From NCBI RefSeq assembly GCF_001602375.1, contig NZ_BCNY01000014.1, positions 372,001-436,000 of the forward strand: 64,000 nt of DNA, in the 5' to 3' direction. Positions 4,085-63,566 of the stretch are shown here, piece after piece. The notes under the pieces were generated by a model. That model searched no databases, was not told the origin of the DNA, and saw only the letters and a program-made list of their open reading frames with translations. A program made the position numbers and the translations under genes. The stretch is from Methanoculleus horonobensis (GTDB lineage Archaea > Halobacteriota > Methanomicrobia > Methanomicrobiales > Methanoculleaceae). Position 1 is the stretch's first letter; every line of letters starts with the position of its first letter.

Positions 4085-4159
4085 CTTTGCTGAATCCCTT
4101 CTCTAAAGGCCGAATCGCCTCCAGAGTTATCCGCACATCATCGACTCACGGGAAGTGCG

Positions 4160-4592
4160 ACGGTTCGTGAGCACGACTGCTGTCCAAGCAGGAGTTTGAG
4201 TAGCCGGAAGCGAGGGCAAAACCCCGTACGCTGAACCGTGGGGATATCGCGTCTGGAGGAGTGCGACTGGCCGAAGGTGCGATGTTCCTCTGGAACGGAG
4301 CTGGAGCACCGTTAGGAACGACGTTCCATGGGAACGGAGTTCGAGCACCGAAGGTGTGAGGCGCGGGGGCAGGAACACGAGAAGACTTCGTTCTTCGAAG
4401 GGGGGCATCCCCCTCCCTTGTCTCTACCTTACACTCGGACATCTGTAACCCCCACCCCGCCCGCGCTTCGCGCTCCTCCTCCGCACCTTCGGTGCTCAAA
4501 CTCCCGCCGTCCGCTCCGCTCTCGGCAGTCGTTCCCCGCCCCTCAGGGCGGGGGCAGTGCGTGGCGATACCCCATTGAAAGCCGTGTATGAG
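4160..4592 (-). repeat. Dispersed intergenic repeat, copy A
   Basis: First of at least nine related intergenic elements. Going left to right it holds CCCCGTACGCTGAACC then GGGGATATCGCG (4241-4252), a GGAACGGAG/TTCGAGCACCG block, a GGGGGGCATCCCCCTCCC palindrome (4401-4418), GTAACCCCCACCCCGCC, CGCGCTTCGCGC, GCACCTTCGGTGC, CCCCGCCCCTCAGGGCGGGG and finally GTGGCGATACCCC (4561-4573). The order is that of copies C and I and the reverse complement of copies F, G and H. The reading frames inside it encode low-complexity peptides and are not genes. Confidence 0.85.
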
Positions 4593-4799
4593 TTGTGACT
4601 GACCGGAGGGCACAAACCAGAGCATCGGAGGGTGACATTCCTCTAGGAAGCGACGGTGTTTAGAGGATGGGGCGGGGAGCAGAAGCCGGGGGATGGGAAT
4701 CTGAAAGAGGTGGGCGTTGAGGAGATTGTTTCTCAAAGTTTTTTGAGATTCTTTACTTAATTACGCTGCTCTCTTCGGTCACATGTCACCGTCTTCGGA
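4593..4799. other. Gene-free spacer between repeat copies A and B
   Basis: I see no coding frame, RNA gene or convincing promoter here. It contains a small hairpin, TCTCAAA then TTTTGAGA with a short loop (about 4732-4749), and then becomes AT-rich. Confidence 0.4.
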
Positions 4800-4985
4800 T
4801 TTCAGGTGGATATCGCCACGCGGGGCGGGGCTGGCGGGGAGGGCGACGTTCCGCAGGAACGGAGTTCGACCACCGTCAGGTGGCAAGGGGGGAGCATCCC
4901 CCCTCCCCTGCCCTTTCAAAGAACATCGTTCTTCTCGTGCTCCGTCCCTCGCACCTGACGGTGCTCACGCTCCTTGCCATCCCCG
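4800..4985 (-). repeat. Dispersed intergenic repeat, copy B (shortened)
   Basis: Starts with GGTGGATATCGCCACGCGGG (4806-4825), continues with the GTTCCGCAGGAACGGAGTTC block, CCACCGTCAGGTGG, a GGGGGGAGCATCCCCCC hairpin followed by CTCCCC (about 4888-4909), and GCACCTGACGGTGC (4951-4964). The distal GTGGCGATATCC end seen in other copies is missing. It lies about 80 bp upstream of rqcH, so it may be in or near that gene's promoter region. Confidence 0.75.
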
Positions 4986-5078
4986 GCCCATTCCTCCGCC
5001 CGCTCCGCGCCAGATCAAGAGCCAGTCCCAACTGCCCGTACCCTTCTTTAGGTACCGGGCCGAATGTATTCTGAATCA

Positions 5079-8017: not shown

Positions 8018-8333
8018 TCCGGGAGTTTGAGCACCGTTAGTGCGATTTACGTGACAGAACGGTCTCAATCAAGGACAAAGCCCCGTACAGTGGACTGCGG
8101 GGATATCGCCACGCGGGGGAGGCGGCTCGCGGGGAGGGGGGATGCTCCCCCCTCCCCTGTTTCTACCCTGTAAGGCTATACCTGCAACCCCCACCCCGCC
8201 CGGCCTCCGGCCTCCTCCTCCGCACCTTCGGTGCTCAAACTCCTGCCGTCCGCTACGCTCCCGGCAGTCGTTCCCCGCCCCAAGGGGCGGGGGCAGTGCG
8301 TGGCGATATCCGGTGGAAAGCCGTGTCCGGGGA
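8018..8333 (-). repeat. Dispersed intergenic repeat, copy C (well preserved)
   Basis: Left part has GAGTTTGAGCACCG, then CCCCGTACAGTGGACTGC and GGGGATATCGCCACG (8099-8113). A long palindrome at about 8134-8160 has 12-nt arms GGGGAGGGGGGA and TCCCCCCTCCCC around a TGC loop. Next come CCCCCACCCCGCC, GGCCTCCGGCC, GCACCTTCGGTGC (8222-8234), CCCCGCCCCAAGGGGCGGGG and CGTGGCGATATCC (8299-8311), followed by GTGGAAAGCCGTGT. The two ends GGGGATATCGCCACG and CGTGGCGATATCC are inverted relative to each other. It separates pelA from the EMC6-like/ABCE1 pair. Confidence 0.88.
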
Positions 8334-8679
8334 TGCGCGACAGCATGAGCATAGAAGCCCCTCGATATTCGAGAATCGAGCAGATACTGCGCGATATTTG
8401 AGTGTGACCAAGTCTGAGACCTCCAAAAGCCGGGACGCCCCCTGCACACCCTCACCTCTCCTGATATATCTCCCGCGAGAAGAACAATCACAGATGACCC
8501 CGCTCCGCCGCCCCTCCTGCCCCGCCGGGCGGGAGGTACCTATCTTTTATTACCGGAGAACGCCCTATTATGTAGTAATTCCGTCAATCCCGGGAAGCGG
8601 CCAGAAGTCGGTTTGCTCCCGTCGGGCTGTCGCCCCGAAGGGGCTTCCCTTTCAGGAATGGCGCAACACTGGTGTCACG
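8334..8679. other. Gene-free region upstream of the EMC6-like gene
   Basis: No credible coding frame. It contains CTCGATATTCGAG, a CCCGCCGGGCGGG hairpin near 8520 and a CCCCGAAGGGG hairpin near 8634, and AT-rich stretches near 8545 (CTTTTATTACC) and 8567 (CCCTATTATG) that could be promoters for the downstream pair. Confidence 0.35.
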
Positions 8680-10904: not shown

Positions 10905-11072
10905 AGCGTTCCCGAACACGGATTTCTGGTGGCTATCGCGTCTGGGGAGGGGTTGCAGGGGAGGGGGAGACCCCCCTCGAAACTCTTCGAGTTTCTCATG
11001 CTCGCTACGCTCGCACTCCCCTTTGTCCCCACCCCCCGTGGCGATTCTCCCACGGTCCAGTGTATCGGGTTT
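10905..11072. repeat. Dispersed intergenic repeat, copy D (short)
   Basis: A roughly 170-bp member. It begins with CGAACACGGATTTCTGG and GTGGCTATCGCGTC, contains a GGGGAGGGGG...CCCCCCTC block with an altered centre, the hairpin AAACTCTTCGAGTTT (10980-10994), GCTCGCTACGCTCGC, and ends with CGTGGCGATTCTCCC and ACGGTCCAGTGTATC (11037-11066). It has both end types seen in the family, one at each end and inverted, but little of the interior. Confidence 0.7.
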
Positions 11073-11260
11073 TCGCGCCTCTAACGACCCGTCAATCTCG
11101 TAAAAGGAGGATAGATTGTGATTTCCCGATAGCAGAGCCGTTTCTACCCTTCTAGAACCAATCCTAACTAACCCAAATGGCGGCCCAAACACGCCCGCGC
11201 TCTGCCATGGTATCCAGAAAGCCGGCGTTCCTCCCCCCGTTCTGCGCTCTCAAGCCCCGT
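11073..11260. other. Spacer between copy D and the beta-propeller gene
   Basis: The 3' flank of the minus-strand che operon. I see no gene. Open frames on the plus strand running from here into the propeller gene are shadows. Confidence 0.4.
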
Positions 11261-25324: not shown

Positions 25325-25912
25325 TTAGAGGAGTATGTTAATCGTGTTGATAGCGGGGGGGACCGTCCTCTTGATCGGGTAAACGGCACCGGCAGCCGGC
25401 TGCAGGTTTACAGAGAACTGCTGGTTCGGGGCGGGGTCCGCGACATGTATGCCCAATACAAACTGCTCGCCCGGCTCAAGGAGCGTGTTGTCGGTCACGT
25501 TGTTGTAGAACTCAAGGATTGTCCAGTTGTTGTAATTTGCTGTCTTGAGGTCATCCTCGTCCGCACCAGCCTCCCAGTCCATCTCCTGGCGGGTGTTCTC
25601 ATCGATGTAGACGACCACCATCTGGGTCACATCAATGGGGGTACCGCCGGCGGTGTTTGCGACTGCAAACTTGATGTACCCAAGGCCACCATCGGTTGTG
25701 GTGTTGTTCACGCCATAGACGTTGCCGACGATCTCGATGCTGGAACTTGCCTGGCTCACGCCGGTGTGGACGACCTCCTGGCTCTTCTGGGTTGTGAAGA
25801 AGCCGGCGCCGAGTATAACGTACGAGAAGACCGCGGCCACGACGATGAACGCGATCAGGACGATCGCCGCCTCAAGACCGGTGAATGCGTTTTCGTTAAA
25901 GTTCTTTCTCAT
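25325..25912 (-). CDS. arlB2: Archaellin (major filament protein), second copy
   Basis: A 195-residue archaellin. The start at 25912 gives a class III signal peptide, MRKNFNENAFTG, cut before LEAAIVLIAF by the ArlK/FlaK-type peptidase; the hydrophobic helix that follows builds the filament core. The C-terminal domain is beta-rich with several N-x-S/T sequons (NNTT, NYNNWT, NNVT) that could be N-glycosylated. The longer frame upstream lacks an RBS and overlaps the first archaellin. The first ~55 residues are almost identical to archaellin 1. Confidence 0.93.
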   Translation of the reverse strand: MRKNFNENAFTGLEAAIVLIAFIVVAAVFSYVILGAGFFTTQKSQEVVHTGVSQASSSIEIVGNVYGVNNTTTDGGLGYIKFAVANTAGGTPIDVTQMVVVYIDENTRQEMDWEAGADEDDLKTANYNNWTILEFYNNVTDNTLLEPGEQFVLGIHVADPAPNQQFSVNLQPAAGAVYPIKRTVPPAINTINILL

Positions 25913-25922
25913 TCTCGTCACC

Positions 25923-26495
25923 TCAGTAGACCTCATAGAACTTACTCGCTGCCAGATCCGGAGGAGCCACACGGGATACCGGGTAGGAAGCGCCGATATC
26001 CGGCTTCACTTCGATGGTGAACCTCTGGTTCTCGCTGATGGTTATGTAGTCTCCAACGGGCACATCAACACGCACCGTCTCGAACTTCTCCAGAAGCTCG
26101 TTTGCTGGTGTCGCGCTGTTGAACCAGGTCAGTGTGACGTTTTTATCTGCAGTGCCATAGTCATACGTTTTCAGCTCGTCTTTCGTCGAGACGGTATACG
26201 TGACCTTCTTCATGTCGACCGGAGATCCACCCGCTGCAAGCTGCAGGTAGAACGACACATTATACACGCTGTGTGCAGTGCTGTTTGTCTCGAGTACCAC
26301 AGGTCCCGACACTTCCATGTTCGCACTTGCCTGGGCCACACCGGTGTGGACGACCTCCTGGCTCTTCTGGGTAGTGAAGAACCCGGCGCCGAGCACCACG
26401 TACGAGAAGACTGCGGCAACGACGATGAAGGCGATCAGGACGATCGCGGCCTCAAGGCCGGTGAATGCGTCTTCGTTTCTCATCATTTTGCTCAT
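25923..26495 (-). CDS. arlB1: Archaellin (major filament protein), first copy
   Basis: A 190-residue archaellin with class III signal MSKMMRNEDAFTG before LEAAIVLIAF. The outer domain differs strongly from archaellin 2 (KKVTYTVSTKDELKTYDYG...) with fewer sequons. AGGAGG at 26505-26510 (minus strand) is a strong ribosome binding site 9 nt before the ATG, and a TATA-like element lies at 26579-26590. It is the first gene of the two-archaellin transcript. Confidence 0.94.
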   Translation of the reverse strand: MSKMMRNEDAFTGLEAAIVLIAFIVVAAVFSYVVLGAGFFTTQKSQEVVHTGVAQASANMEVSGPVVLETNSTAHSVYNVSFYLQLAAGGSPVDMKKVTYTVSTKDELKTYDYGTADKNVTLTWFNSATPANELLEKFETVRVDVPVGDYITISENQRFTIEVKPDIGASYPVSRVAPPDLAASKFYEVY

Positions 26496-26759: not shown

Positions 26760-26857
26760 ATACGGGAAATATTCAGCACACCTCTCCGGTGCTGAGGGTG
26801 AATGAGGGATCGGCCGCACGGGATGGCCTTCAATCGAAGGGGAGGAAGGAACTGGAT

Positions 26858-27535
26858 ATGACGAAGAAGCAGGACTTTATCTACGTCGTTCTGGGAATCG
26901 TGGTCGTCCTCGTGCTGGCCCTGATCATCAAGCCGGCGGCGACCGGCGAGCCGTCGGGACTATGGGGGGCCGGGGAGCCGGAGCCGACGATAACCCCGGC
27001 ATGGACGCCCACGATCCCCTCCGTAACTGCGGTGCCGACACCCACGCCGGTGCCCACCTGGGATGGAAAGCCGCGGCCGGTCAAGTTCGTCGACCCCGGG
27101 GTCTACCAGGTCCCGGCCGGGGAGAGCCGCCTGAACATGACCGTCCCACCGCCCGGAACCGTGAACGCGCCCGGCATCACCCGGTGGGTGACCTACGCGA
27201 CGATCGACGGCCAGTGGTCGGGGACGACCGGGATCGTCCGGATCCCGTTCCCGATCTGGCGGCTCGACTACTCGGATGTCACGACCTCGAACGACGAGAT
27301 CCCGCTCTTCAACTGCCAGGTCATGGATGCCGAAGATCCGAACCGGTTCGTCCGGGTCGTCACCCTCAACTTCGCCGACTTCCTGGCGGTGAAGGATAAG
27401 CCCGATCTCAGGAAGCAGCAGTGGGTGAGCACCTTCTACGAGGGCTACCACGATTACTACCTGGTCATCAACACCCGGTGCATCGACTCCTACAACTTAG
27501 CGATCCAGGTGCCGGAGACGTACCTGGATGCCTGA
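26858..27535 (+). CDS. Membrane-anchored exported protein of unknown function
   Basis: A 225-residue protein. MTKKQDF precedes one hydrophobic segment (about 8-28, IYVVLGIVVVLVLALII), then a Thr/Pro-rich linker (about 40-75, repeated TPTIP and PTPVPT) and a globular domain (about 80-225) with three Cys-free beta-rich stretches and a late INTRCIDSYNLAI segment. The ATG at 26858 follows GGAGGAAGGAACTGG, which supports the start. The build is that of archaeal surface proteins with a glycosylatable stalk. I cannot assign a family. It is divergent from the archaellins, so it may be co-regulated with them. Confidence 0.7.
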   Translation: MTKKQDFIYVVLGIVVVLVLALIIKPAATGEPSGLWGAGEPEPTITPAWTPTIPSVTAVPTPTPVPTWDGKPRPVKFVDPGVYQVPAGESRLNMTVPPPGTVNAPGITRWVTYATIDGQWSGTTGIVRIPFPIWRLDYSDVTTSNDEIPLFNCQVMDAEDPNRFVRVVTLNFADFLAVKDKPDLRKQQWVSTFYEGYHDYYLVINTRCIDSYNLAIQVPETYLDA

Positions 27536-27587
27536 GACGGGTGCGTGAAACCGGAAACCCGGTAGAGGGTGAGTGCGGTTCCCGGTG

Positions 27588-27880
27588 GCACCTCCCCCCT
27601 CCGGTTCGTATTGGATGGCGCTCTGACCCCCGTTCGGAACCCTTCGGGGTTCTCAAGATCCTGTCTCAAAGCCTGACGGCTTCTCCTGCTCCGTTCTTCG
27701 AAGACCTTTGGTCTTCTCGAACTCCTGTCCAACGGACAGTCGTCACTCGCACCTTCGGTGCTCGAACTCCTGCCCTACGGACAGTCGTCACTCGCACCTT
27801 CGGTGCTCGAACTCCTGCCCTACGGACAGTCGTCACTCGCACCTTCGGTGCTCGAACTCCTGCCCTACGGGCAGTCGTTT
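27588..27880. repeat. Dispersed intergenic repeat, copy E (hairpin array, no GATATC ends)
   Basis: A chain of small hairpins: GAACCCTTCGGGGTTC, GAAGACCTTTGGTCTTC (27699-27715), GTCCAACGGAC, then three rounds of GCACCTTCGGTGC plus TGCCCTACGGACA-type stems. It lacks the GTGGCGATATCC ends and the G-rich palindrome, so it is a partial or expanded family member. It fills the space between the exported protein gene and the convergent agmatinase gene. Confidence 0.75.
27741..27875. repeat. Three tandem 45-bp units inside copy E
   Basis: Units start at 27741, 27786 and 27831. The first two are identical and the third differs at one base by my reading. A partial unit (ACTCCTGTCCAACGGACAGT, 27721-27740) precedes them. 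Each unit contains the hairpins GCACCTTCGGTGC and GCCCTACGGAC/GGGC. There is no spacer variation, so this is not a CRISPR array. Confidence 0.9.
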
Positions 27881-27904
27881 TTAAAAAAAAAAGTTATATT
27901 GTCT

Positions 27905-28756
27905 TCATTGCCCAGCGAGCCAGTGCCGGGCGATGAACTCCCGCACGATCTGCGCCGCCACTGCCGCCGTCTGCCCGGTATCGAACGGCGCGACCTCAAC
28001 GTAATCGAAACCCGCGACCTCGGGCGCGAGGGCACGCACGACCTCCCGGATCTCGAGCGGCGTCATCCCGAACGGCTCAGGCGTCCCGAGGCCGGGGGTG
28101 AGGCAGCAGTCGATCGCGTCGGCATCGATCGAGAGGTAGATCCTCCTCCCCGCAACGTGCTCCCGGACCTCCCGGAGGACGGCGGCGATCCCCCGCTCGC
28201 GCACCGCGTCGGCGGTGTAGAGGCGCGTCCTCTCCGCCGCAATCTCATACTGCTCGCGATCGCCGCTCCGGGCACCGATGATGACGACGTCCTCGACCGT
28301 ATCGAGGACGCGCCGGGTGACGCACCCGTGGCTGTAGGGCGTCCCGTCGAGTTCGTCCCGGAGATCCAGGTGAGCGTCGCAGACGACGTAGACCTCCGGC
28401 CGGACGGCCCTGACCGCGCCGACGGTCGCGGTGTGCTCGCCGCCGAGCATCACCGGCACCTTGCCGTCGCGGACGATATCTCCCGCGACGTCCGCGACCT
28501 CTCCGGCGACCTCCTCCGGCAGCCGGGAGACCGCAAGATCGCCGAGATCCGTCACCGGCACTTCCGAAAAGTCTATTCTGGTCCCGGGGTCGTAGGACTC
28601 GAAATTGAACGAGACCTCCCGGATCGCCCGGGGTCCGAACCGCGCCCCCGGCCGAAACGACGTCGTTCCGTCGTAGGGGACGCCGAAGACGGCGTAGCGG
28701 GCATCCTCATACGATGCATCCGCATCCGCAAAATGGAGATGGGCGAGCTCATGCAT
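27905..28756 (-). CDS. speB: Agmatinase (ureohydrolase family)
   Basis: A 283-residue arginase/agmatinase-family enzyme, expected to turn agmatine into putrescine and urea in polyamine synthesis. The binuclear manganese motifs are present: GGEHTATVG near residue 103, DAHLDLRD near 125 and SIDADAIDCC near 203. The start at 28756 is chosen from the family length; the longer frame overlaps aIF5A. It lies 25 bases downstream of aIF5A, whose hypusine modification needs a polyamine, a known archaeal pairing. Confidence 0.9.
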   Translation of the reverse strand: MHELAHLHFADADASYEDARYAVFGVPYDGTTSFRPGARFGPRAIREVSFNFESYDPGTRIDFSEVPVTDLGDLAVSRLPEEVAGEVADVAGDIVRDGKVPVMLGGEHTATVGAVRAVRPEVYVVCDAHLDLRDELDGTPYSHGCVTRRVLDTVEDVVIIGARSGDREQYEIAAERTRLYTADAVRERGIAAVLREVREHVAGRRIYLSIDADAIDCCLTPGLGTPEPFGMTPLEIREVVRALAPEVAGFDYVEVAPFDTGQTAAVAAQIVREFIARHWLAGQ

Positions 28757-34475: not shown

Positions 34476-34853
34476 CCGTACACGGATTTCCATCGGACTA
34501 CGCATCTGGCGGTGCTCATGCTCCAGATGTTCCATCCATTGCAAGTCCAAGATCTTCGGTCTTCTCCTGCTCCTGCCCCGCACCTAACGGTGCTTCAGCT
34601 CCGTTCCTCGAAGACCTCCGGTCTTCTCAAACTCCTGTCCTACGGACAGTCGCTCTCCGGAACGTCGCACCTTCAGCCAGTCGCCTATCGCCACGCACTG
34701 CCCGCCCCCCATGGGGGCGGGAGGAGCGCGAAGCGCGGGTGGTGGGGGTTACAAAGATCCATTACAACGTGGAGACAGGGGAGGGGGGATGCTCCCCCCT
34801 CCCCGTCAGCCCCACCCCCAATGGCGATATCCCCACGGTCCAGTGTACCAGGC
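34476..34853 (+). repeat. Dispersed intergenic repeat, copy F (well preserved)
   Basis: Left end CGTACACGGATTTCCATCGG; hairpins GACCTCCGGTC in a GAAGACC/GGTCTTC stem (34611-34627), CTGTCCTACGGACAG (34635-34649); TATCGCCACGCACTGCC (34686-34702); CCCGCCCCC-CAT-GGGGGCGGG (34701-34721); GCGCGAAGCGC; a palindrome with arms GGGGAGGGGGGA and TCCCCCCTCCCC around TGC (about 34779-34805), and the right end ATGGCGATATCCCC with ACGGTCCAGTGTACC (34821-34849). The orientation is opposite to copies A, C and I. Confidence 0.88.
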
Positions 34854-35067
34854 TATATTATCGCTTCGATTGTTCTATTTGCCGTGATAGTTATCCTAGA
34901 GCCTTCTCATGCTCACTCACCTGCAGCACTCGTATCCTCCGGCACGCCTTTCTCCTGAGTGTCTCCATACCTTCCCTTCTCACTCACCACCCGCCGGAAC
35001 CCCCTCCCCCCCCTCGCTACCCATAAATACCCGGAGCCGGCAGATATCCCTCATCGAGGCAAAGGCG
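34854..35067. other. Promoter region of the DUF2284 gene
   Basis: No gene seen. CCATAAATACCC at 35021-35032 is a TATA-like element about 40 nt upstream of the ATG at 35068. Confidence 0.4.
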
Positions 35068-36830: not shown

Positions 36831-37243
36831 GACAGCCCCCCGATAGATCTCCCCGGCACACCCACTCTCCGGCCGGGCGCAGATTGAGACGGTGCAACTC
36901 TCTCCGAGTTGCGCTTTTGGGTATAATACGGAGCGGGAAATATAAGGGTATGGTTCGGGAAGCATCTGATGGCCATGGTTGATCTCGCTAGACCCGACGG
37001 CGTTCCGTGCGGCCCGGCCGCCGGCCGCACCGGCTTTGCGTGTGCGGACGGATGGTATGGCGGCCGCATATCGGCAGGTCTCCTCTGGAAGAGCACTCTG
37101 TTTCGAACACGCGGATGGCCTGAACCGCAGCATGTGGAGCGGCCGCTGGCCGCTCCCGCTCGCGGCGGGATCCACTCCCCGCAACGTTTTATTACCTTCA
37201 TGCATCCATACCGGCGTAATCCAGATTCTGGAGGTATCCGATC
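36831..37243. other. Divergent region between MIP synthase and fae, with GC-rich palindromes
   Basis: The minus strand has TATA-like CTTATATTT near 36940 and a hairpin CAACTC...GAGTTG (36896-36912) in the MIP synthase leader. Two strong stems follow on the fae side: GTGCGGCC...GGCCGCAC at 37007-37030 and GAGCGGCC-GCT-GGCCGCTC at 37137-37155. CGTTTTATTACC near 37185 may be the fae TATA element. Frames running through here (36969-37445) are shadows. Confidence 0.5.
37226..37231 (+). promoter_or_regulatory. Strong ribosome binding site of fae
   Basis: The sequence GGAGGT lies about a dozen bases before the ATG at 37244. It supports that start over upstream in-frame alternatives. Confidence 0.5.
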
Positions 37244-37747
37244 ATGGTTGATCTCGAAGATGCACTCATCGGAGAAGCGCTCGTCGGCGAAGGGCCGGAG
37301 GTTGCCCACGTCGATCTGGTCATCGGGAGGAGAGGGAGCAGCGTGGAGCAGGCATTCGTCACGGCTCTCGCATCGCCTGCACGGGGGCACACTCCGCTTC
37401 TTGCCGTGCTCACCCCGAACATTCCGGCAAAGCCCTCGACGCTGATGGTCAACAAGGTCACGATCAAGAATGCAGGCCAGGCCCTCCTGATCTTCGGCCC
37501 GGCCCAGGCCGCCGTCGCGAAGGCGGTGGTGGACAGCGTTGCGGAAGGTGTCATCCCGGAGGCGGAGGCCGACAATCTGCTGATCATCGCGTCGGTCTTC
37601 ATCGAGTGGGATGCGGCGGAGAAGAAGAAGATCTACGACTGGAACTACGAGGCGACGAAGCTCGCCATCCGCCGGGCTGTCAAGGGTGAACCGGCGGTTG
37701 CCGAGGTGCTTGCACAGAAGGATACGGCGAAGCATCCCTTCGCGTGA
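37244..37747 (+). CDS. fae: Formaldehyde-activating enzyme Fae
   Basis: A 167-residue Fae, which joins formaldehyde to tetrahydromethanopterin to give methylene-H4MPT, linking formaldehyde release or detoxification to the methanogenic C1 carrier. GEALVGEGPEVAHVDLVIG at the N-terminus carries the histidine (H22) equivalent to the catalytic one, and LTPNIPAKPSTLMVNKVTI is the pterin-binding block. It is the single-domain form, not fused to hexulose-phosphate synthase. Confidence 0.95.
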   Translation: MVDLEDALIGEALVGEGPEVAHVDLVIGRRGSSVEQAFVTALASPARGHTPLLAVLTPNIPAKPSTLMVNKVTIKNAGQALLIFGPAQAAVAKAVVDSVAEGVIPEAEADNLLIIASVFIEWDAAEKKKIYDWNYEATKLAIRRAVKGEPAVAEVLAQKDTAKHPFA

Positions 37748-45626: not shown

Positions 45627-45717
45627 AACGGATTCCATATCCTCCTCTTTTTTGCACAGTTTGAACGCTCAGTGAACAATGGATTTTTGCGCACCATCGC
45701 CACTTGTAAATGCTTCG

Positions 45718-45972
45718 TGTTCTCTTCTGCTTCTGCCCTTCGGCCAGTCGCCAGTCCAAGACCTTCGGTCTTCTCCAGCGATGTCCCCACGGGACATCGC
45801 CTATCGCCACGCACTGCCCCCGCCCCGCAGGAAGGGGGAGGAGCGCGAAGCGCGGGTGGGGTGGGGTGACGAGAAGTACAGATCTTTGAGAGTTGAGACA
45901 GGGGAGGGGGCATGCCCCCTCCCCGTCAGCCCCTCCCCCAAGGCGATACTCCCACGGTCCAGTGCATGGGGC
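45718..45972 (+). repeat. Dispersed intergenic repeat, copy G
   Basis: In order: CAAGACCTTCGGTCTTCTCC hairpin (45757-45776), ATGTCCCCACGGGACAT hairpin (45781-45797), TATCGCCACGCACTGCC, GCGCGAAGCGC, then a perfect 24-bp palindrome with half-site GGGGAGGGGGCA (about 45901-45924), CCGTCAGCCCCTCCCCC and the end GGCGATACTCCC with ACGGTCCAGTGCATGG (45942-45968). The palindrome centre differs from copies C and F but still pairs. Confidence 0.85.
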
Positions 45973-46198
45973 TCTCTCTGAGTCCAACAGTTCTGTGTTA
46001 GGGGGTCGTAATTACACTGCCGGAGCTCATGTTATCGGAGACCATACTATTCCCGTTAAACTCCAGTACCTGCTCCATTACCATGGACAAAAAACCCGCC
46101 CCCACCCTGCAGGAAAAAATCTTCCTCCCCCTGCACCACACCCCCGCAACCGGAATACTCTTTTCTCCCCACGCGTTTATTCTCCTACGAGGATTACC
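45973..46198. other. Spacer and promoter of ilvD
   Basis: No gene seen. CGCGTTTATTCTCC near 46173-46186 is a TATA-like element about 20-25 nt before the ATG, and GAGGA precedes the start. Confidence 0.4.
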
Positions 46199-54453: not shown

Positions 54454-54639
54454 ACCGGGTTTTGCGCGCGATTACTCTATTCCTGATAGTGCTGCCTGAT
54501 TCTATTGCTGTCCCATCTTGCGAGATTTTTCGCAGATTTTCCTGTAATTTCGCCGTTGGCCCAATATGTATATCTGCGTTGTGAACGGCCTCTTGCCGAG
54601 AGCACGGGGAGCCTCTGAAGAAGAACCGTGGACGGCTTC

Positions 54640-54998
54640 CCACTGGCTTCGCACCTTCGGTGCTCTAGCTCCGGTTCTCGAAGACCTCCGGCCTTCTCGA
54701 ACTCCTGTCCTAAGGACAGTCGTTCTCCGAACCATCGCCTATCGCCATGACTGCCCCCGCCCCGAGGTGTGGGGTGCGACGGGCCATAGGGCCGGAGCAT
54801 GAGCACCGAAGAACGATGTTCCATCAGGAACGGAGTTCGAGCACCGCAGGTGCGAAGGTGCGAGTGAGGAGCGCGAAGCGCGGGCGGGGTGGGGGTTAGC
54901 AGTGTCCTCGAACCAGGTAGAGACAGGGGAGGGGGGCTGCACCCCCCTCCCCGTCAGCCCCTCCCCCAGTGGCGATATCCCCTGGAAATCCGTGCATC
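54640..54998 (+). repeat. Dispersed intergenic repeat, copy H (long)
   Basis: In order: GCACCTTCGGTGC (54650-54662), CTGTCCTAAGGACAG (54706-54720), TATCGCCATGACTGCCC, CCCGCCCCGAGG, GGGCCATAGGGCC, GAGCACCGAAGAACG, GGAACGGAGTTC, GCGCGAAGCGC, GGCGGGGTGGGGG, a GGGGAGGGGGG...CCCCCCTCCCC stem (about 54927-54953), then GTGGCGATATCCCC and TGGAAATCCGTGCATC (54969-54998). The block 54750-54895 is the reverse complement of 63163-63308 in copy I with no mismatch that I can see. Confidence 0.9.
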
Positions 54999-55199
54999 AG
55001 GATAAACGATGATCCAGTAAGGACAGTGCCCTAAAAAAACCCTTTGACGAGACTCTCAGCCAGGAATGCCCTAGAATACCCCAAATAGCCCCCGTGCAGC
55101 AACTCCTCCTCAAACCACCACCCCGGCCCTCGCCGTGGCACCCCAAAACCACACCTCGCCCGGAACTCCCCGGCTTAAAACCGGGAAAAAAAGATATCG
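54999..55199. other. Spacer between copy H and the small gene
   Basis: This is the 3' flank of the minus-strand mmp14 unit. No gene is seen. CCCTAAAAAAACCC near 55030 could be a terminator for either strand. Confidence 0.3.
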
Positions 55200-62747: not shown

Positions 62748-62805
62748 CCAACTCGCTCTAAACGCTTCGCATACTCTGCCGGTTTGTTATCTGGTGGTAC
62801 TCACC

Positions 62806-63346
62806 TGCCCTGGCCTTCGGCCTCCTCCCCTTCCTGAGGAGCGGGGCAGCCATGGCGATAAACGATGTTTCGACAGGAACAGGGTTCGAACACCTCCTGG
62901 TGCTAGCCTGGCGGAAAGCCTTATCCCGGGAGCGAGCCGGGACCCTTTACATTTCCAGGTTCTCCCATACTGTGGACCGTGGGAGACTCGCACCTTTGGT
63001 GCTCGAACTCCGCCTGCCCTTCGGGCACGCATCGTTTATCGCCATTGGGGAAGGGGCCGACGGGGAGTGCGATGCTCCGAAGGAGCAGAGCTCGACCACC
63101 GTCAGGTGGGAAGGGGGGCCTGCCCCCTCCCCTGTCTCTACCATGTAAGCCCCTAACTGTTGCCCCCACCCCGCCCGCGCTTCGCGCTCCTCACTCGCAC
63201 CTTCGCACCTGCGGTGCTCGAACTCCGTTCCTGATGGAACATCGTTCTTCGGTGCTCATGCTCCGGCCCTATGGCCCGTCGCACCCCACACCTCGGGGCG
63301 GGGGCAGTGCGTGGCGATATCCCCACGGTCCAGTGTCCCGGGATTT
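62806..63346 (-). repeat. Dispersed intergenic repeat, copy I (longest)
   Basis: It contains GGCCTTCGGCC (62813-62823), AACGATGTTTCGACAGGAAC, GAACACCTCCTGGTGC, GTGGACCGTGGGAGAC, GCACCTTTGGTGC (62990-63002), GCCCTTCGGGC, CCACCGTCAGGTGG, GGGGGGCCTGCCCCC, CCCCCACCCCGCCCGCG, CGCTTCGCG, GTTCCTGATGGAAC, CCCCGAGGTGTGGGGT (on the minus strand) and the end GTGGCGATATCCCC with ACGGTCCAGTGTCCC (63311-63338). The stretch 63163-63308 is an exact inverted copy of 54750-54895 by my reading. Confidence 0.9.
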
Positions 63347-63566
63347 CTCACGGTTAGGGCCGTATATTCGAGTTTGAGGCGTTATCTGGTTTCGAGCCAC
63401 AACGATGCGTCAGAAATGGAACTAGATTACTACAAGGTGCGAGTTGCACAGTCCGCTAAAAATCCCTGGACGGGCTCCCCCACCGGGGAACCCTATGGCT
63501 TCCGGCCGGGAAGAGCCCACAATCGTTCTCACCCGTGAACCCGGGTGAAACAGTTGCAACGATATT
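63347..63566. other. Spacer between copy I and argF
   Basis: This is the 3' flank of argF. A frame at 63311-63538 reads out of the repeat and is not credible. CTCCCCCACCGGGGAACC (63475-63492) and ACCCGTGAACCCGGGTG (63530-63546) can form small stems. No gene seen. Confidence 0.35.

Follow-up and report, generated by a model that had tools for sequence, protein, structure and literature searches.

The array of mini-hairpins found at about 27637-27878 on the minus strand (the strand on which its G..A loops are read) belongs to a family of intergenic repeats which is dispersed in more than 50 copies. The analysed DNA, a stretch of 64,000 nucleotides referred to below as the window, is part of the 2.45 Mb draft genome of a Methanoculleus (15 contigs, 99.85% complete). 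The repeats are probably small non-autonomous elements dispersed in Methanoculleus, which would act as folded single-stranded DNA and would spread by means of an enzyme supplied in trans.

The array is flanked on one side by a plus strand open reading frame (26789-27535), for which no Pfam match was found, and on the other by a minus strand gene of the arginase family (27905-28756; the longest open reading frame reaches 28840). Parsing resolved it into alternating hairpins separated by fixed linkers. The repeated 45-nt unit reads, on the minus strand, [CTGTCC-GTA-GGGCAG]-GAGTTCGA-[GCACC-GAA-GGTGC]-GAGTGACGA. The features of the array are as follows.

27637-27878, minus strand: hairpin array of head-to-tail mini-hairpins with linkers GAGTTCGA / GAGTGACGA; 7 three-base-loop hairpins, 0.3 expected
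27669-27682, minus strand: mini-hairpin AAGCC-GTCA-GGCTT (GNNA loop)
27700-27716, minus strand: mini-hairpin GAAGACC-AAA-GGTCTTC (loop not GNA)
27716-27878, minus strand: tandem double-hairpin unit, 45 nt x 3.6, 97% matches (Tandem Repeats Finder and parsing)
27725-27739, minus strand: mini-hairpin CTGTCC-GTT-GGACAG (loop not GNA)
27749-27761, again at 27794-27806 and 27839-27851, minus strand: mini-hairpin GCACC-GAA-GGTGC
27860-27874, minus strand: mini-hairpin CTGCCC-GTA-GGGCAG

An earlier note, made from the sequence alone, had described strings of mini-hairpins with three-base loops at 27588-27880; the array begins only at about 27637, and 27588-27636 lies outside it. Among the hairpins which that note had named, GCACC-TTC-GGTGC occurs three times in the array, and GAAGACC-TTT-GGTCTTC is present once, but its loop on the other strand is AAA and not GNA. 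GTCC-TAC-GGAC has no exact copy in the array, which instead contains GTCC-AAC-GGAC and GCCC-TAC-GGAC/GGGC; an exact copy is at 34637-34647. GCGC-GAA-GCGC was located in related elements (e.g. at 34727). The hairpin GAGCGGCC-GCT-GGCCGCTC near fae, which had been counted as kin of the array, turned out to be isolated, to lack a GNA loop on either strand and to be no member of the family:

37136-37156: GGAGCGGCC-GCT-GGCCGCTCC, a perfect hairpin standing alone upstream of fae (Pfam Fae 37244-37747), non-member

Elsewhere in the window, two neighbouring archaeal flagellin genes share a 164-nt stretch which is 89% identical (25734-25897 and 26314-26477), and the sequence suggests a tandem duplication or a conversion tract.

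The density of such hairpins is far above chance. When hairpins with a stem of at least 5 bp were counted in 27536-27904 and compared with 1000 dinucleotide shuffles, there were 7 with three-base loops against 0.30 in shuffled sequence (maximum 3), 4 with four-base loops against 0.29 (maximum 3), and 4 triloops of the GNA/TNC type against 0.06. The earlier note had named beforehand, as the result that would speak against it, a frequency of triloop hairpins in intergenic DNA equal to that in shuffled sequence of the same composition; the frequency found is well above this. The 10.7 kb of intergenic DNA in the window contain 40 hairpins with three-base loops, compared with 9.3 in 200 shuffles (s.d. 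3.3, maximum 18); the corresponding numbers were 22 and 1.5 (maximum 5) for GNA-type triloops and 26 and 9.6 for four-base loops. The coding DNA of the window (53.6 kb) has 71 three-base loops, only 12 of which are of the G..A type.

With the array as blastn query, 62 matches were obtained in the own genome; a compact relative (8080-8330) gave 98. These matches group into 52 captured tracts with a total length of 18.5 kb, and further copies exist: the outer-end motif was found 55 times, and the linker motif GAGYNNGAGCACCG occurs 163 times as compared with 4 occurrences of the reversed control. Five of the 15 contigs (C7, C8, C11, C13 and C14) start within a hairpin tract; the assembly was probably interrupted by the repeats, and the counts are to be taken as minimum values. 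According to gene calls based on codon usage, 44 of the 52 tracts do not overlap a called gene. The members of the family recognized in the window, besides the array, are listed below.

4150-4610: family tract with hairpin cassettes and host palindromic element in reverse orientation (blastn tracts, sequence)
4786-5010: family tract, a GGGGAG palindrome whose arms hold hairpin cassettes (blastn tracts, sequence)
8062-8340, minus strand: host palindromic element in compact form, containing a single double-hairpin insert; termini GATATCGCCAC...GTGGCGATATC
10907-11084: family tract (blastn tracts)
34520-34870: cassettes (G..A loops on the minus strand), then host element 34686-34829 in plus orientation
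45700-45990: cassettes and host element 45802-45948
54630-55010: cassettes and host element 54740-54977 with an internal double-hairpin insert
62805-63360: family tract with cassettes in both arms (blastn tracts)

No match to the repeats was found among viral contigs, phages and plasmids, and a viral or plasmid carrier was rejected for this reason. Matches in bacterial metagenome-assembled genomes (L061, L102 and L140) were set aside, since by estimate about 15 matches are expected by chance for the search pattern used (18 bases, one of them ambiguous, in 257 billion bases). Text searches, which covered papers outside subscription, found no earlier description of the family.

The loops of the family obey a rule. 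In the tracts, whose statistics rest on genome stretches around the repeat matches, three-base-loop hairpins occur at 10.8 per kb, eight times more densely than outside (1.29 per kb). On one strand, 154 of the 200 tract triloops read GNA, compared with 49 of 218 outside, and 123 of these 154 are closed by a C-G pair. Four-base loops are also more frequent in the tracts (6.1 against 1.5 per kb); 72 of the 112 tract tetraloops are GNNA, all but two of them (70/72) C-G closed, whereas there was little or no enrichment of five- and six-base loops. The same GNA rule is followed by 78 of 154 distinct triloop hairpins at other Methanoculleus loci. To avoid circularity, the loop was disregarded, and the linker GAGNNNGA was the only guide to the orientation of hairpins that have the GCACC/GGTGC stem. 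In the triloops oriented in this way the first position was G in 86 of 93 and the third A in 91 of 93, with the middle base distributed as A50 G22 C18 T3; GAA was the commonest and GTA the rarest. Among the linker-oriented tetraloops 56 of 62 began with G, 57 of 62 ended with A, and the third base was C or T in 52 of 62. The tetraloops thus favour GNYA, the opposite of the RNA-type GNRA. The suggestion that many of the loops are GNA on one strand is supported genome-wide, where G..A loops with C-G closing dominate, the ends being constrained and the middle free.

GNA and GNNA loops on G-C stems are known as extraordinarily stable DNA mini-hairpins (PMC4686876), and d(cGNNAg) is among the selected stable DNA tetraloops of Nakano et al. 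(2002), as cited in PMC5090098. The family shares with d(GCGAAGC) and, as described in that citing paper, with d(cGNNAg) the loop that starts with G, ends with A and is free in the middle, as well as the C-G closing pair. Such mini-hairpins are known mainly from oligonucleotides and aptamers; the present repeats follow the rule throughout a natural family. The melting temperature of a GAA loop is reported to be 6 degrees higher than that of a GTA loop (PMC6479982), and the excess of GAA over GTA is in line with this gain. The stability of the loops rests on the literature, because the nearest-neighbour DNA energy tables used here assign equal energy to every triloop and do not separate DNA from RNA. 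Extrusion of the hairpins as single-stranded DNA would fit the loop rule, and we infer that the repeats are active when folded as single-stranded DNA.

Changes in one arm of a stem are compensated in the other, while the loop ends stay fixed. When first hairpins were anchored by the linker, at least five of six positions were paired in 33.8% of 340 distinct copies, compared with 3.9% after swapping of the arms (200 trials, maximum 6.2%), and 43 different 3' arms were present among the paired ones. For second hairpins the values were 40.9% and 14.5%. This control leaves the relatedness of the copies in, and the counts do not represent independent events since the copies share descent. In about two thirds of the linker-anchored copies the first hairpin was not paired at 5/6 positions, for which decay, nesting or chance matches to the linker are proposed.

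The hairpins carry a tag. GAG-N2-4-GA lies directly upstream of 236 of 349 distinct C-G-closed hairpins, as against 2.4% of random tract positions, and GAG is found within two bases downstream of 201 of the 349, as against 7.3%. These flanking sequences define the monomer as GAG-N3-GA plus a hairpin, and two monomers constitute the 45-nt repeat at 27716-27878. Many cassettes reside in a host element of about 110-280 bp that contains no gene and has terminal inverted repeats GGATATCGCCAY...RTGGCGATATCC; the smallest version, about 110 bp long (L271, L274, L276), is a plain quasi-palindrome with G-rich arms. Like a MITE, the host element is dispersed and non-coding and ends in inverted repeats, but it has in addition hairpin cassettes at fixed internal sites. 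Of the copies of the arm site GGGGCTGACGGGGAG^GGGG, 90 were empty and 46 held hairpin cassettes of diverse kinds, and the cassettes in the two arms are in mirrored orientation. In an all-against-all search the extra segments had length modes of 45-48 nt, mostly with 0-4 nt of ambiguity and often GAG; entries made of N (L123) are artefacts. Duplications at the insertion point amount to just 0-4 nt and are often ambiguous in the G-rich sequence. Around the 22 host-element cores with TATCGCCA...TGGCGATA ends the flanks are part of longer conserved ends, and clear duplication was not seen. At the 14 outer-end sites that were read, of the 55 found, a transposase was not recognized, nor was an autonomous copy of the family. 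The arms of the host element (GGGGGTGGGGACAGGGGAGGGGGG; L276, L274, L271; window 34769-34804) contain four G-runs and could form a one-strand G-quadruplex.

The distribution was followed in 35 genomes of the genus and 150 genomes of the order. Within the genus the motif GAGYNNGAGCACCG is present patchily, in 2 to 225 copies. Outside it the order genomes were at or near background (at most 9 matches) with one exception, and the family is thus restricted largely to one genus. The sole clear carrier outside the genus among those sampled (G119, another genus of the same family) has 31 copies of the linker motif compared with 2 of the control. At the locus beside the arginase gene, arrays of other composition were found in G006 and G031, a short one in G025 and none in G024, G026 and G009; such present/absent comparisons are between paralogues or species, some may reflect deletions, and the direction of change would be a deduction. 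A different repeat with ACGCGAAGACGCGAAG motifs, again with GCGAAG, lies 3' of the orthologue of the open reading frame 26789-27535 in other members of the genus (L202 and L204). The idea that the arrays mark replication sites found no support from strand evidence: in one closed genome (G006; forward matches only) the forward-strand clusters numbered 24 and 31 in the two chromosome halves, with no replication polarity, and a replication-strand bias was rejected on this comparison. In the same genome about 0.36 Mb around orc1, which is at the contig start, is free of the forward-strand linker motif (C1, from about 2334600 across the end of the contig as far as 191770; P about 0.013 for a gap of this size).

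Could the repeats be by-products of repair of quasi-palindromes? Template switching would then make and perfect the hairpins, and gene conversion or slippage would multiply and homogenize the units; neither a dedicated enzyme nor selection for a function would be needed. Correction by template switch yields perfect stems of varied sequence, and the variable copy number of the tandem arrays and the mirrored orientation of cassettes in opposite arms of the host element agree with such an origin. Repair alone, however, does not account for the fixed GAG-N3-GA tag, nor for the recurrence of a distinct unit of 45-48 nt at several sites and at loci that are not linked; the preferred G..A ends of the loops would be explained only if the switching were guided by the stability of the loop. 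Moreover, restriction to one genus with near-absence in some sister species looks like invasion. We consider this origin unlikely.

It is improbable, too, that the repeats act at the RNA level as transcript terminators, 3' end stabilizers or processing sites. The array itself would suit this role, as it is located between convergent genes with a T-run/A-run at its end, and RNA folding of the region was better than in all 100 shuffles. Of the 52 tracts, on the other hand, 22 lie between tandem genes, 14 between convergent and 11 between divergent ones, and a terminator-only role was rejected on this gene context. In addition, 28 tracts have G..A hairpins on both strands, the tetraloops avoid GNRA in favour of GNYA, and no Rfam family matched, a tRNA excepted.

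The design of the family resembles that of REP, BIME and REPIN sequences (PMC3733652, PMC3116915): short tagged hairpins, intergenic, in high copy number, clustered, with compensatory stems and specific to a lineage. It differs from them by the GAG-N3-GA tag in place of GTAG/CGTC, by GNA/GNNA loops with C-G closing, by head-to-tail double hairpins, by the archaeal host and by the lack of an accompanying Y1/RAYT gene. Such a design would be expected if the repeats were classical REP/BIME sequences that a RAYT-type Y1 HUH transposase mobilizes, and some members of the genus do have Y1_Tnp genes; the link to an HUH/TnpA-REP or IS200-like enzyme had also been raised in the earlier note. Y1_Tnp (PF01797), however, is missing from the own genome, and its distribution in the genus is inverse to that of the repeats: no match above the family cut-off was found in any of the 15 genomes where the motif occurs more than 90 times, whereas among the six genus genomes that do have such a match five are at background (3 to 8 copies). 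No GTAG or CGTC foot was found on the hairpins, only the GAG-N3-GA context. Y1/RAYT/IS200 was thus rejected as the engine on its genus distribution and its absence in the own genome, and the classical system is largely refuted and very improbable here. Reverse transcription in the own genome was rejected as well, since RVT_1 is absent from it, as it is from 32 of the 35 genus genomes. Among the enzymes searched for (Y1_Tnp, RVT_1) none was found that could mobilize the repeats.

Two other systems offer parallels. The CGTC REPs, like this family, have no dedicated transposase. The double-hairpin elements of Allomyces mitochondria and related repetitive hairpin elements, compared here by their description (Paquin et al. 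2000, as cited in PMC2800124 and PMC7218506), likewise consist of two hairpins and are optional at defined sites; the 45-nt unit has two hairpins and is optional between related loci. As far as those citing papers describe them, both have little or no target duplication, the Allomyces-type elements being organellar whereas the family resides in an archaeal chromosome. The RNA-intermediate route proposed, according to these descriptions, for Allomyces-type elements is unlikely here because the genome has no reverse transcriptase.

Least probable are DNA sites adopted by the host, e.g. for binding of nucleoid or topoisomerase proteins as proposed for some BIMEs, for although the repeats are intergenic, numerous and in all orientations, and the 0.36 Mb around the orc1-linked origin of G006 has no forward-strand copies, the genus includes viable species with hardly any copies, and orthologous sites show turnover of the units.

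A non-autonomous REP-like mobile element, with hairpins acting as single-stranded DNA, is the most likely explanation, its mobility being deduced from the filled and empty sites. The elementary block is a single mini-hairpin following a GAG-N3-GA tag, on the strand with the GNA or GNNA loop. Blocks are mostly paired to a double hairpin of 45-48 nt and arranged in head-to-tail arrays, and they lie at precise G-rich sites (GAG/GGAG), within each other and within the MITE-like host element. The hairpins would be important in their folded form, adopted by single-stranded DNA in the course of replication, repair or transposition, the C-GNA-G and C-GNNA-G loops being exceptionally stable. The units may spread from the folded state, copied or inserted by a trans-acting enzyme other than a Y1 (RAYT/IS200) transposase and other than any reverse transcriptase of the own genome. 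A tentative and rather doubtful proposal is that the mobile unit is a single-stranded mini-hairpin of 20-48 nt, known by its sheared G-A loop and GAG-N3-GA tag, and that a recombinase not of the Y1 type, or else the replication machinery itself, inserts it at GAG sites.

A natural family that keeps the loop rule of stable mini-hairpins over many stems and in several species is unusual comparative evidence for folded single-stranded DNA, not RNA. Because empty and filled sites occur within one genome, the family is testable. Since genomes rich in copies lack the usual Y1 HUH enzyme, it points to another way of multiplying palindromic repeats, a question which also concerns the CGTC REPs and the organellar double-hairpin elements.
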